A stretch of DNA of 64,000 nucleotides from Salinisphaera sp. T31B1 (GTDB lineage: Bacteria > Pseudomonadota > Gammaproteobacteria > Nevskiales > Salinisphaeraceae): assembly GCF_040361275.1 (NCBI RefSeq), contig NZ_APNH01000001.1:434001-498000 (forward strand), given 5' to 3'. Positions within the stretch are counted from its first letter, which is position 1, and the number at the start of each line of letters is the position of its first letter. The position numbers and the translations under genes were made by a program. The notes beneath the pieces are model-generated. The model had not been told where the DNA came from. It was given only the letters and a program-made list of their open reading frames with translations, and did not search any database. This document shows positions 58,690-63,581 of the stretch, in pieces.

Positions 58690-59970
58690 ATGTTTTTACG
58701 GTCGTTAGTGTTGTCTTGCCGCCTGCAGTTTATCGGCCTGTTGCTCATTGGGCTTGCACTCGCCGTACCGGCCCGGGCGGACTGGCTGCAGTATCGCGAC
58801 GGGGCCGATCGCAATGCCGTGGTCGATACCCAGCTCGCCGCCCCGACCGACCGCGTGAGCGCGCTCCCCACGCCTGACGAGGTGCGCGCGACGCCCACCG
58901 TCTACGACGGCGACCTGCTGGTCGGCAACCATCTGGCCGGTGCGCTCCAGCGTATCGATCCGGCCACCGGCACCGATCGCTGGTCGCTGAATGCACCCAA
59001 CTGGGTGCACTCGGAGATCGTGTGGGCCGGCAAGATCGGCGTCGTCGGCTACGGCAATCGCTATTTCCCCTCCGACGATGATCCGAACGAGGTCAACTAC
59101 GTACGCGGCACCGGGGCCTCCGGCGTGATCGCACTGGATCTGGACGATGGCACCGTACGCTGGCGCTATCGCACCATCGGCGAAGTCATGCCCACCCCCG
59201 TGATCGACCAGGGTAGGGTCTACGCGGCCACCGGTGACCGGGCCGTCCATGTACTGGACCTGAATACCGGGCGCCAGCTGGGCCTGATTCGCTTGGGATC
59301 GTTCGTGAGCATGTCCTCGCCGGCGCTCGATACACAGGGCCGGCTGTTCGTCGGCGGCGGCGATCCGTATCGACTGTTTTGTATCGACCCTGTCGGACAG
59401 ACCGTGGTCTGGCACAGCGATTTCCCGGACATGATCGGCGGCGTGGACGACGTGCCGCCCGCCGTGGCCGGCGATACCGTCTATACCACCGGCGTGATCG
59501 GCACCGATCGACCGGACCGCTTCGATCATCGGCTGTATGCGATCGATGCCGCGACCGGCCAACGGCGCTGGGAGGTGTCGCTGGGTATCGGCGGACCGGT
59601 GAAGAACAACCGCAGCGGCGCGCCGGTGGTCGCCGAGGATCGCGTCGTGGTCGGCAGCCCGACCAGCAAAAGCCTGCAGGCATTCACCCTGGACGGCACG
59701 CGTCTATGGCGCCTCGACAGTGGTGCGATGAAGGCGCCGGTGGTCATTCACGACGGCACGGTGTATGCGGTCAACGCGGCCGGCGAAATCCTGGTCGTGG
59801 ATCTGGCCAGCGGCACGCTGCGCAAGCGCTACAAGCTCAGCGACAAGCCGCTGGCTCCCGCCGGGCCGGTGCTCGTGGGCCAGCATCTGGTCGTGCCCGC
59901 CCAGGACAAGCATGTGTATCTCGTGCCGCTGGCGCTGCTGAACACGCCCGCCGACGACGCCGGCCGTTAA
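58690..59970 (+). CDS. Exported PQQ-type beta-propeller protein
   Basis: The 426-residue protein has a signal peptide (ending PARA) and repeated WD-like PQQ blades: ALQRIDPATGTDRWSL, VIALDLDDGTVRWRYRT, VHVLDLNTGRQLGLI, LYAIDAATGQRRWEVSLG and ILVVDLASGTLRKRY. It resembles BamB-like propellers but is longer, and no catalytic dehydrogenase residues are evident. It follows the M15-like gene by 28 bp with GGAG before the ATG. Its TAA overlaps the convergent gene's stop. Confidence 0.85.
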   Translation: MFLRSLVLSCRLQFIGLLLIGLALAVPARADWLQYRDGADRNAVVDTQLAAPTDRVSALPTPDEVRATPTVYDGDLLVGNHLAGALQRIDPATGTDRWSLNAPNWVHSEIVWAGKIGVVGYGNRYFPSDDDPNEVNYVRGTGASGVIALDLDDGTVRWRYRTIGEVMPTPVIDQGRVYAATGDRAVHVLDLNTGRQLGLIRLGSFVSMSSPALDTQGRLFVGGGDPYRLFCIDPVGQTVVWHSDFPDMIGGVDDVPPAVAGDTVYTTGVIGTDRPDRFDHRLYAIDAATGQRRWEVSLGIGGPVKNNRSGAPVVAEDRVVVGSPTSKSLQAFTLDGTRLWRLDSGAMKAPVVIHDGTVYAVNAAGEILVVDLASGTLRKRYKLSDKPLAPAGPVLVGQHLVVPAQDKHVYLVPLALLNTPADDAGR

Positions 59971-61019
59971 GGTGTGGCCTGGGGGCCGGCCGTCAGGACG
60001 GTGCCCTGGCCGGCCCCTGCGCCCGGCCCGGGCGTCGAGCGGCCCGCCGCCGTATCGGCAAGCGCTGCCAGCCGGTTGGCGATGGCCTCGATACGATCGC
60101 TCTGCCCCTGGATATCGTGGCGATCGGCCACGAAGCGCGGGCTTTCGTAGTAGATCGTGACCCGACCGTCATCGGCCTGGGTCACCAGCATCTTCTCGGG
60201 CAGATCGATGCCTGCGGTCTGACCGGCCTGCATGAGGCGGGAGTCCGCCGAGACGTCGCCGAACACGAACAAAGTGCTCGGATTGAGCGCACGCCCGATC
60301 TGCAGCGCACGCTGGGCAAAGTCGACAGTGAACACGCTGGCCAGGTCGGCATCGGCGTTGATCGCAGTGTTCAGATTCGACACGGTCGCGGCGAAGCCGA
60401 CCCGACTGTCCACCGATACGATACCTGCGCCCTCGTCCAGGCCCGCACTCGACCCGCGATTGTCCACCGCGTTGTCAGCGGCTTGTTCGACCAGCGCCTG
60501 CAGATCGTCGTCGTAGCTGTCCAGGGCACCGTCTTCCGCATCGGCGAGATCGAAGCGTGCCGCCAGATAATTGCCGCTGTTGTACGCCAGGCCCACTTCG
60601 CCGTCGTCATCGCGATAGACCAGAATCCGTGCCGGCAGGTCGAGCCCGACGCGCGGATCGGCCGCGACCAGTGCCGCGGTGCGGTTGGGATCGTCGAGAA
60701 AATACACCGTGGTCGGGCGCAGCTCGAGCGTCACGTTGGCTGCGCGCTGGCGGTGATCGATCACATCCGCCAGATAGCGATTGCGCTCGCGGTAGGCTGC
60801 GACCAGCGCATCGCGGGTCGCGTCGAAGCTGCGGTCGGATACGGCCAACGCAAGCCCCGAGACATCGGTATCGGCCACCGGCTCGGTCGTATCGGTCACG
60901 CCATCGTCGTGTCCGCTGCCGACACCCAGTTCCGAAGACCAGTCACAGCCGGCCAAGACGGCAAGCCCGGCCAGCAGCAACAGGCTTGCAGCGACTCTCC
61001 CCGGCCTGCGTATCGACAT
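59967..61019 (-). CDS. Lipoprotein with two DUF302 domains
   Basis: The 350-residue protein has a lipobox (VLAGC) and two DUF302 domains (about 48-150 and 175-285), each with the TVYFLDDPNRTAALVAADPRVGLDLPARI / TLFVFGDVSADSRLMQAGQTAGIDLPEKM pattern. DUF302 proteins have no settled function and may bind a small ligand. A Pro/Gly/Thr-rich tail follows. It is the last gene of the patatin operon, 37 bp downstream of the voltage-sensor-like gene. Confidence 0.82.
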   Translation of the reverse strand: MSIRRPGRVAASLLLLAGLAVLAGCDWSSELGVGSGHDDGVTDTTEPVADTDVSGLALAVSDRSFDATRDALVAAYRERNRYLADVIDHRQRAANVTLELRPTTVYFLDDPNRTAALVAADPRVGLDLPARILVYRDDDGEVGLAYNSGNYLAARFDLADAEDGALDSYDDDLQALVEQAADNAVDNRGSSAGLDEGAGIVSVDSRVGFAATVSNLNTAINADADLASVFTVDFAQRALQIGRALNPSTLFVFGDVSADSRLMQAGQTAGIDLPEKMLVTQADDGRVTIYYESPRFVADRHDIQGQSDRIEAIANRLAALADTAAGRSTPGPGAGAGQGTVLTAGPQATP

Positions 61020-61056
61020 GGCGCGCTCCCGGACCGTGGCTGACAACCTGCTCAGA

Positions 61057-62097
61057 TTACTCGAAATGCTCGCGCCAGCGCTGGACCGCGACCTGCTGCT
61101 TGACCAAGTCCAGAATCTCGACGACGGCATCGCGCACCTCCGAGCTCTCGCCGATATCATCGGCCAGCAGGCGGGTTATCACGCTGTCGGTGATGTTCTG
61201 GACCAGCGCGTCGAAGTCCGCCGAGGACAGACCCGCCACCGCTTCGTCGAGCACATTGTTGACGGTATCGGTGATCGCCTCGTCCAGCGCCCGGGACACG
61301 AAGCTGCCCAGCATCGGCACGCGCTCGAGATTCTTCAGCGCGCTGTTGTTGTCCACCCCGCGATTGACCACCGACGCCACATAGGCCTGCAGCTGCTCGC
61401 GGTTGGCCTTGTAGGCGCTGATGATGGCGTTCTCGATATGGGTGCTGGCCGAAGCCACCAGCCGCTGCTGGCGCGGCTGGATCACCTCGCGCACGACCTG
61501 GTTGGACAGTTCGCGGCCGCCGCTCTGCAGTTCGTCCTGGGCGCCGCTCAGCACCTTGATGACCACCCGATCGGAGATCTCTTCAACGACGATGTCGTAG
61601 TAGACCATGGCCGTCTTGTATACGGCCCAGTTGCGGATATCGATCGCGCCCAGGCGTTGCAGACGCATCAGAATCGAGATCACGCGCAGGATGCGCAGAA
61701 AACGGAAACCCGCTACCGGCACGCAGCCCAGCACGTCGTACCAGCGCGCGAAGGGATAGAAGAACCAGCGATAGTAGCGCTGCTGGTAGATCGCCACCGC
61801 CCAGCCGGCCAGCACATCGGCGACGAAGACGGCCACGAACATCAGATCGATGGTCACGAAATTTTCGTGGATACGGCTTTCGTACCAGTCGTGGCCGGCC
61901 GGCCACAGCGCGTCGAAGGCCGACGACAACGGGCCGACCGCGAACAAAGCGTCGAACACGATCAGCACCAGATTGATCGACACCAGCACGATGATGGCCA
62001 GATCCCAGAGCAGGAACAGCCGTTCGCCGAGGCTGCGCTTCGGATCGACCAGATCGAACGCGTCCAGCGCGTGTGGTGCTTTTTCGCGACGGCTCAC
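61057..62097 (-). CDS. Voltage-sensor-like four-helix membrane protein with helical tail
   Basis: This 346-residue protein has two hydrophobic helices (about 27-53 and 79-104), a third segment ARWYDVLGCVP with Asp121, and a fourth with Arg at 132, 135, 138, 145 and 148 in RFLRILRVISILMR. That spacing and the S3 acidic residue match a voltage-sensor S1-S4 domain, but no pore domain follows. Residues 170-346 form a long helical, coiled-coil-like cytoplasmic tail. GTG 62097 overlaps the patatin stop (GTGA), so the pair is translationally coupled. Confidence 0.75.
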   Translation of the reverse strand: MSRREKAPHALDAFDLVDPKRSLGERLFLLWDLAIIVLVSINLVLIVFDALFAVGPLSSAFDALWPAGHDWYESRIHENFVTIDLMFVAVFVADVLAGWAVAIYQQRYYRWFFYPFARWYDVLGCVPVAGFRFLRILRVISILMRLQRLGAIDIRNWAVYKTAMVYYDIVVEEISDRVVIKVLSGAQDELQSGGRELSNQVVREVIQPRQQRLVASASTHIENAIISAYKANREQLQAYVASVVNRGVDNNSALKNLERVPMLGSFVSRALDEAITDTVNNVLDEAVAGLSSADFDALVQNITDSVITRLLADDIGESSEVRDAVVEILDLVKQQVAVQRWREHFE

Positions 62098-63581
62098 GAG
62101 GCCACCGCCCGCGCATCGGCCCCGGTCAGCGCCACTGGGCGCAGCATCTCGCGCACCTCGTCGATCTGGGCGTCCATCTGACGGTATCCCCAGCCGACGG
62201 CCAGATCCAGCGCCTCGCCGCCGGGCACGATATTCAAAGGCGACAGGGTCTTGTCGAAACGAACCATCGTGTCGGCATACACTCGATTGATGCGCATCTG
62301 CATCTGCACCGTCTGCGTGATCGGCCAGAGCCAGAGATTCTTGGCATCCACCCGGGGAAAGAAACAGTCGAAGGCCAGGTAGTAGGCATTGCGCGTCGCC
62401 GTGGCGGCCCGCCCGGCGGCCACGCCCTGCCATGCAGCCCGGGCGGGCACGTTGTCGGCTACACCGCCGTCGACGATCGCCGCCAGCTCGCGTCGGGCCA
62501 TCAGCTCGGAGAATATCTCGCGCGTGACGCCGGCTCTGGGGCCCGGCTCGTACTGCAGGATCGTCGGCACCGCCGCCGAGAAGCCGGCGGCGTCCACGGC
62601 ATGCACTGCCCGGGTGTCGGTATCCCGGCCGAGTACGATCGGCTCGACCACATCCGCCGAAAAGAACTGCAGCAGGCGGGTAAAGCGTGCGGCCACACGC
62701 ATCCACATCGGCAGCCAGCGGTCGGCGCCACGTTCGGGTGCGCGTACATCCGAGGCCAGCCGCTCGTAGGGCCGTCGGCGAATGCCCGCCACGATCAGAT
62801 CCAGCGGGATCTCCATTTCGTCGAGCCGCAGGGGCCGGCGCAGATCACCGGTGGACATGCGCTGGTGCAAGGCCCGCAGATGCAGGTGCAGCAGCCCCGG
62901 CAGACAGAACTCGCGACGCCGACGCGCGGTGGAGAAGATATCGCCGTTTTTCAGTGGCCGGGCAAAATCCAGGTATTCGTTGACATCGCCGTGGCGTCGC
63001 TGGGCACGAAACAGGCCCAGGATGGCGCCGATCGAATTGCCCACGATGTAGTCCGGAATGAGATTGTCTTCCATGAGCCGAGCGAAGGCGCCGGCATAGA
63101 CATAGCCGGCCCCGCCGCCCCCACCGGCAACCACGACCAGGGCCCGGCGGCCGGCCTCGCGGTCGAGCGCCGCGGCATCGAAGTCGTTGCCATGGGTGGC
63201 CAGCAACCGGCGCCGCAGCGCGATACAGCGCGCACGCAGGCCCGGCACGGCCTCGAGACAGTAGACCAGCTTTTCCTCGGCCGTCGCCGAACCGCGCAGC
63301 CGGTCGTATAGATGTTCGAGCAGCCAGGCGCGCAGCGGCGCGATCTGGGCGGAGTCGACGGTGACATCATCCTGGCCGCTGGCCGGGCGGAACACATGCA
63401 GTCTGGCCAGACCCAGGGCATAACGCAGACACTGGTAGTCGGCATCGGCGATCGCCGACGGCGCCCCCAGCCAGGCACGCACCAGGGCGCGCTCCATACG
63501 CTGGAGCTGCAGCCGCTCGCGTTCGTCGCGTTCGACGTCGGCACGCGACAACGCCGTTGCGGTAGGGCGCGCCGTGTTCAT
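62094..63581 (-). CDS. Patatin-like phospholipase
   Basis: The 495-residue protein has a 145-residue helical N-terminal region and a patatin domain: the oxyanion glycine run GGGGGAGYVYAG (153-164), the nucleophile GNSIG (Ser183) and the catalytic Asp371 in DGGVADN. It should hydrolyse phospholipid or lysophospholipid acyl chains. There is no signal peptide, so it acts from the cytoplasm or inner membrane face. It heads an operon with the voltage-sensor-like protein and the DUF302 lipoprotein. Confidence 0.9.
   Translation of the reverse strand: MNTARPTATALSRADVERDERERLQLQRMERALVRAWLGAPSAIADADYQCLRYALGLARLHVFRPASGQDDVTVDSAQIAPLRAWLLEHLYDRLRGSATAEEKLVYCLEAVPGLRARCIALRRRLLATHGNDFDAAALDREAGRRALVVVAGGGGGAGYVYAGAFARLMEDNLIPDYIVGNSIGAILGLFRAQRRHGDVNEYLDFARPLKNGDIFSTARRRREFCLPGLLHLHLRALHQRMSTGDLRRPLRLDEMEIPLDLIVAGIRRRPYERLASDVRAPERGADRWLPMWMRVAARFTRLLQFFSADVVEPIVLGRDTDTRAVHAVDAAGFSAAVPTILQYEPGPRAGVTREIFSELMARRELAAIVDGGVADNVPARAAWQGVAAGRAATATRNAYYLAFDCFFPRVDAKNLWLWPITQTVQMQMRINRVYADTMVRFDKTLSPLNIVPGGEALDLAVGWGYRQMDAQIDEVREMLRPVALTGADARAVAS

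Follow-up and report, generated by a model that had tools for sequence, protein, structure and literature searches.

A putative pore-less relative of channel voltage-sensor domains encoded beside phospholipid acyl enzymes in Salinisphaera and other Gammaproteobacteria

Introduction

Voltage-sensor domains are known mainly from within ion channels, together with a few eukaryotic cases in which they belong to an enzyme or a proton channel. A 64,000-nucleotide stretch of Salinisphaera sp. T31B1 (contig NZ_APNH01000001.1, positions 434,001 to 498,000; hereafter the window) carries three closely packed minus-strand genes that set a relative of such domains beside a patatin-type acylhydrolase and a DUF302 lipoprotein. 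The product of the second gene is named VSDL here, for a voltage-sensor-domain relative without a pore. Each single domain is known; what appears to be new, judged from sequence, is the recurrent association of such a relative, bacterial and without a pore, with phospholipid acyl enzymes. The genomic pairing suggests that lipid remodelling may involve a membrane partner not yet described. If functional, the pairing would offer a handle on how bacteria place and control intracellular phospholipases, which are potentially harmful to their own membranes. Open-access papers, the scope of a search that left out most subscription journals, contained nothing relevant joining patatin, voltage sensor and DUF302, or Salinisphaera and patatin.

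The patatin gene (62094..63581, 495 aa), assigned by PF01734 and hydropathy, shares four bases, GTGA (62094..62097), between its stop codon and the GTG start of the VSDL gene (61057..62097, 346 aa), itself assigned by Ion_trans matches in homologues and by hhalign. The DUF302 gene (59967..61019, 350 aa) follows after 37 bp. This layout is exactly as described in the first-pass annotation, which had proposed as one reading, from the sequence alone, an operon for a membrane-state sensor that controls lipid hydrolysis. Of the named loci, the closest belong to Salinisphaera species, at 75-79% identity, and to a record labelled Endozoicomonas, at 82%. That record (L006, NZ_JAGHQU010000005.1, Endozoicomonas sp. 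G2_2) carries the Salinisphaera trio in identical gene order, the 82% identity being that of its VSDL, and is probably misnamed.

A pore-less relative of voltage-sensor domains

Taken alone, the window VSDL gives a sub-threshold Ion_trans match that spans S1-S4 (Pfam, E 0.19). Among its homologues, 19 of 48 are hit by PF00520 (best E 1.5e-10), and in an independent whole-genome search for Ion_trans the VSDL gene of one genome (G411) scores above the curated cut-off, over profile positions 3-114 only. A VSDL profile run against PDB sequences recovers the voltage sensors of NaChBac and KvAP in the correct region, at weak E values of 0.04-0.9. When the S1-S4 alignment is compared by hhalign with real channels of related genomes, the probability is 94.6%, against 3.0% for a reversed and 0.2% for a column-shuffled control alignment; the C-terminal domain compared with the same channels gives 0.1%. 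Hydropathy detects no segment of transmembrane (TM) grade after S4 in the window VSDL, that is, no S5-P-S6 pore, and the maximum after S4 ranges from 0.65 to 1.72 across the family, with one member above 1.6. Together, these comparisons support, at profile level, the assignment of VSDL as a pore-less relative of the channel voltage-sensor domain, in agreement with the earlier description of a voltage-sensor-like protein that has an S4-like arginine helix and no pore.

The remainder of the protein is a helical domain (residues ~160-346, 61060..61620, minus strand) that has no TM-grade segment and is presumably cytosolic. It matches neither a Pfam family nor a channel, and contains a conserved proline, P261. 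AlphaFold2 models are too weak to confirm a voltage-sensor fold, both for full-length VSDL with 7 close homologues (mean pLDDT 44) and for the 148-residue S1-S4 part (pLDDT 62), and Foldseek searches with the VSDL models return nothing at E <5, only matches of E about 6. Sub-threshold matches to MscL, alpha-catenin and designed helical proteins were set aside as chance helix similarity. VSDL is frequent in several gammaproteobacterial families and has no dedicated family in the curated libraries searched; a search of viral contigs found no relative. On an Acinetobacter plasmid record (CP040048.1, L019:5815-6861), a 348-aa VSDL homologue is annotated as 'preprotein translocase subunit SecA', an apparent misannotation.

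An intact patatin acylhydrolase

The first gene product matches PF01734 over residues 151-384 (Pfam, E 1.3e-19, 71.6 bits against a cut-off of 27.7). Ser183 (GNSIG), Asp371 (DGG) and the glycine-rich oxyanion loop G153-G157 are invariant across 18 orthologues, in agreement with the earlier claim that all catalytic residues are present, and the sequence is that of a patatin-type acylhydrolase whose catalytic serine and aspartate are intact. Its N-terminal region of ~145 aa is family-specific. Hydropathy indicates neither a signal peptide nor a TM segment, and Pfam finds no cNMP-binding or NTE P-loop domain. A search of plasmids found no relative of this patatin.

Phospholipid enzymes as recurrent neighbours of VSDL

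Phospholipases of two further classes adjoin VSDL outside Salinisphaera. In a genus of another family (g297), VSDL is followed by an NTE-type patatin, composed of cNMP-binding, NTE P-loop and patatin (2.5e-28) domains, in all five VSDL-positive genomes examined, and the two genes overlap by 4 bp in two genomes (G516, G865). The same genus also encodes the Salinisphaera-type patatin, at a separate genome site. In a third lineage (G369), the phospholipase gene pldA (PF02253, 3.4e-89) begins 7 bp downstream of VSDL. Enzymes that act on acyl groups in other ways extend the pattern. In some ten genera of a family that seems to include Acinetobacter (Moraxellaceae-like, an inferred family name), the gene immediately upstream of VSDL encodes a PlsC-like acyltransferase, and in Halomonas-like genomes it encodes an acyl-CoA thioesterase.

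In the genera with the PlsC-like acyltransferase, minCD usually lies downstream of VSDL. The order of acyltransferase and VSDL directly upstream of minCD is seen in many genera (L239, L243, L244, L246 and other f9 genomes), and it is possible that it links phospholipid remodelling to the placement of the division site.

The reading favoured here, to which we give a probability of about 0.45, is that VSDL serves in the inner membrane to anchor or regulate phospholipid-acyl enzymes, such that patatin and VSDL form a two-gene core, the partner differs by lineage and the DUF302 protein is a passenger. Under this reading, the four-helix part of VSDL would be embedded in the inner membrane, and its C-terminal helical domain would reach into the cytosol to hold or restrain an enzyme that removes or adds phospholipid acyl chains. 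Translational coupling would keep synthesis of the cytoplasmic patatin in step with that of VSDL and so maintain the balance of enzyme to anchor. Since the patatin lacks a signal peptide and a TM segment, it would need a route to the membrane, for which the C-terminal domain of VSDL is the obvious candidate. The partner would be the patatin in Salinisphaera, the NTE-type patatin in g297, PldA in the third lineage and the PlsC-like acyltransferase in the Moraxellaceae-like genomes, with the DUF302 lipoprotein a later, dispensable neighbour. Binding, regulation and substrate in the pairing are all presumptive.

In 18 representative genomes, patatins and PldA together make up 0.13% of genes, or 4.6 per genome. 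With the discovery case left out, two of ~35 distinct close co-directional VSDL neighbours, in a list collapsed by hand, are phospholipases (P about 0.001), a value that is supportive and not conclusive, the wider acyl-enzyme class having been chosen partly after the data had been seen. That choice is one of several points that weigh against an anchoring or regulatory role. The majority of VSDL genes lie beside no lipid enzyme. PldA acts in the outer membrane, where contact with an inner-membrane VSDL is impossible, so the G369 case can only mean a shared pathway. Outside Salinisphaera, 20 genomes of the order have the patatin, either on a different contig from VSDL or at least about 300 kb from it, and one of them has no VSDL. 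Finally, an unrelated exonuclease gene upstream of the pair is as well conserved as the pair itself, which makes synteny within the genus weak proof of a functional link.

Distribution of the trio

Adjacency of patatin and VSDL is found in 13 of 14 Salinisphaera genomes, the fourteenth (81% complete) having neither gene. The patatins of genomes with the pair share 62-83% identity. Of 11 Salinisphaera loci besides that of the window, 10 show the same 4-bp overlap; at the exception (L095) a 16-bp gap separates the genes. Across the order, VSDL is present in 71 of 85 genomes, mostly without an adjacent patatin, and it also occurs in other gammaproteobacterial families; the orthologous patatin is present in 33 of the 85. 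With Salinisphaera left out, the co-occurrence of the two genes in the order is weak (Fisher p = 0.09). In sister genera VSDL keeps the same locus, next to MsrA or M15-LDT, and the patatin is not there, so the patatin and the DUF302 gene were probably later arrivals that joined VSDL in the Salinisphaera ancestor.

This distribution makes co-transcription without functional coupling a real possibility. VSDL would then be an old, widespread inner-membrane protein with a function of its own and neighbours acquired by chance; in the ancestor of Salinisphaera the patatin gene would have come to lie between MsrA and VSDL, and the overlap would be ordinary synteny. The rarity of an adjacent patatin among VSDL-positive genomes, the sister-genus loci that lack it and the equally conserved exonuclease all fit this account, as does the diversity of other VSDL neighbours, which include NAD synthase, MsrA, PduO, amidase, SelO, GGT, EAL and more. 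What it explains poorly is the presence of two further phospholipase classes beside VSDL in unrelated lineages, one of them linked genus-wide and with overlapping genes.

The trio as such is a genus-level arrangement, confined to Salinisphaera. The first-pass annotation had treated the three genes as one system, a view that does not hold among relatives: two Salinisphaera genomes lack the DUF302 gene, and in genomes of other genera the members of the trio lie apart from one another.

Voltage sensing

Arginines of the S4-like helix (residues 132-148, 61654..61704, minus strand; R132, R135, R138, R145, R148) are highly conserved in the 48 aligned VSDL homologues: R132 and R138 in 48/48, R145 in 47/48 and R135 in 46/48. 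Hallmark residues of the preceding helices are mostly retained as well (D32, N/S42 and D/E49 in S1; D84, F91 and D/E94 in S2; D/E121 in S3). The segment that leads into S4 is short. From Trp119 in S3 to the first S4 arginine there are 13 residues in most members, 11 in two members and 18 in a short form; counted from the S3 acidic residue (Trp119 +2), the distance is 11 residues (range 9-16), whereas the S3 aspartate and S4 arginine of channels from the same order are 19-26 residues apart. The S3b-S4 paddle of VSDL therefore cannot be of normal length. Moreover, the equivalents of R132 and R135 are lost in two of the five VSDLs that adjoin an NTE-type patatin (L228, L230). These two (L228:4993-5760, L230:4546-5382) lack the first S4 arginines yet still lie beside the enzyme gene, and offer a natural test of the importance of S4 charge.

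Because of the shortened S3 and paddle and the loss of the first S4 arginines in two NTE-coupled members, voltage sensing is doubtful as a conserved function of VSDL. It is unlikely that the S4 of VSDL responds to the voltage or the state of the membrane and that VSDL in this way turns the patatin on and off, as a two-protein analogue of a voltage-sensing phosphatase. Homology to channel voltage sensors and the near-universal retention of the S1-S3 acidic residues and S4 arginines speak for such a switch; the short paddle, the missing arginines and the many VSDLs with no adjacent enzyme speak against it. A specific form of the idea, in which VSDL would signal collapse of the membrane potential to the cytosolic patatin, which would then remodel inner-membrane phospholipids in a gated complex that is the two-protein counterpart of a voltage-sensing phosphatase, is less likely still. 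Of the original suggestion of a membrane-state sensor controlling lipid hydrolysis, a probable link between VSDL and phospholipid hydrolysis survives, strengthened by the other phospholipases that adjoin VSDL in two more independent lineages and by the acyltransferase setting; voltage sensing as a conserved function is not supported.

The DUF302 lipoprotein and the surrounding sequence

The third gene product, described earlier as a lipoprotein with tandem DUF302 domains, fits that description: PF03625 matches in two stretches (Pfam, 87 bits, 8e-25), and a lipobox (Cys25 in the window protein) is present here and in 8 orthologues. The gene accompanies the patatin-VSDL pair in 11 of 13 Salinisphaera genomes and is absent from two (G447, G449), both of which retain the pair. 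The DUF302 lipoprotein is best read as a neighbour on the periplasmic side, a dispensable passenger outside the conserved core. The titles and opening abstract lines of DUF302 papers point to no function. The protein also matches the NCBIfam model NF002454 (fluoride transporter CrcB, PRK01636) at 5e-23, but with 81.9 bits against a cut-off of 312; the model appears to contain DUF302 sequence.

A convergent gene for a PQQ beta-propeller protein (58690-59970, plus strand) overlaps the DUF302 gene by 4 bp at the two stop codons (59967-59970). A scan of the region for promoter patterns found none. A defence-system reading was dropped, PADLOC having returned zero matches for the patatin, VSDL and the DUF302 lipoprotein.

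Comparison with known systems

Bacterial patatin-like phospholipases (PF01734) such as PlpD of Pseudomonas share with the window patatin an intact oxyanion loop, GXSXG serine and DGG aspartate, and the PlpD structure 5fqu is recovered as a weak profile match. The window patatin differs in its own N-terminal region, and all solved structures are only distantly similar. NTE-type bacterial patatins (cNMP_binding, NTE_Ploop and Patatin) are the class whose gene is coupled to VSDL in g297, but the first two of these domains are missing from the window protein.

Voltage-gated ion channels (PF00520; NaChBac, KvAP) resemble VSDL in their S1-S4 homology, the S2 Phe-x-x-Asp/Glu motif and an S4 with arginine at every third residue. 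Unlike them, VSDL has no S5-S6 pore, an S3b/paddle ~10 residues shorter and its own C-terminal helical domain. The proton channel Hv1 shares with VSDL the plan of a membrane protein that consists of a voltage sensor only, with a C-terminal helical part. That plan, together with the conserved S1 acidic residues D32 and D/E49, would suit a VSDL that conducts protons, in which case the patatin might be unrelated or pH-responsive. Yet the Hv1 S4 signature is RxWRxxR, whereas the VSDL S4 reads RxLRxxR, with tryptophan, if any, at +1; S3 is too short, the C-terminal domain is long, and the VSDL profile, run against PDB sequences, matched no Hv1 structure. An Hv1-like channel is the least likely of the readings considered.

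The voltage-sensing phosphatases Ci-VSP and TPTE likewise tie a pore-less domain of voltage-sensor type to an enzyme that acts on lipids. In Salinisphaera, the membrane protein and the enzyme are encoded by separate genes, the enzyme is an acylhydrolase and not a PTEN-like phosphatase, the system is bacterial, the S4 is not strictly conserved across the family and control by voltage is only putative.

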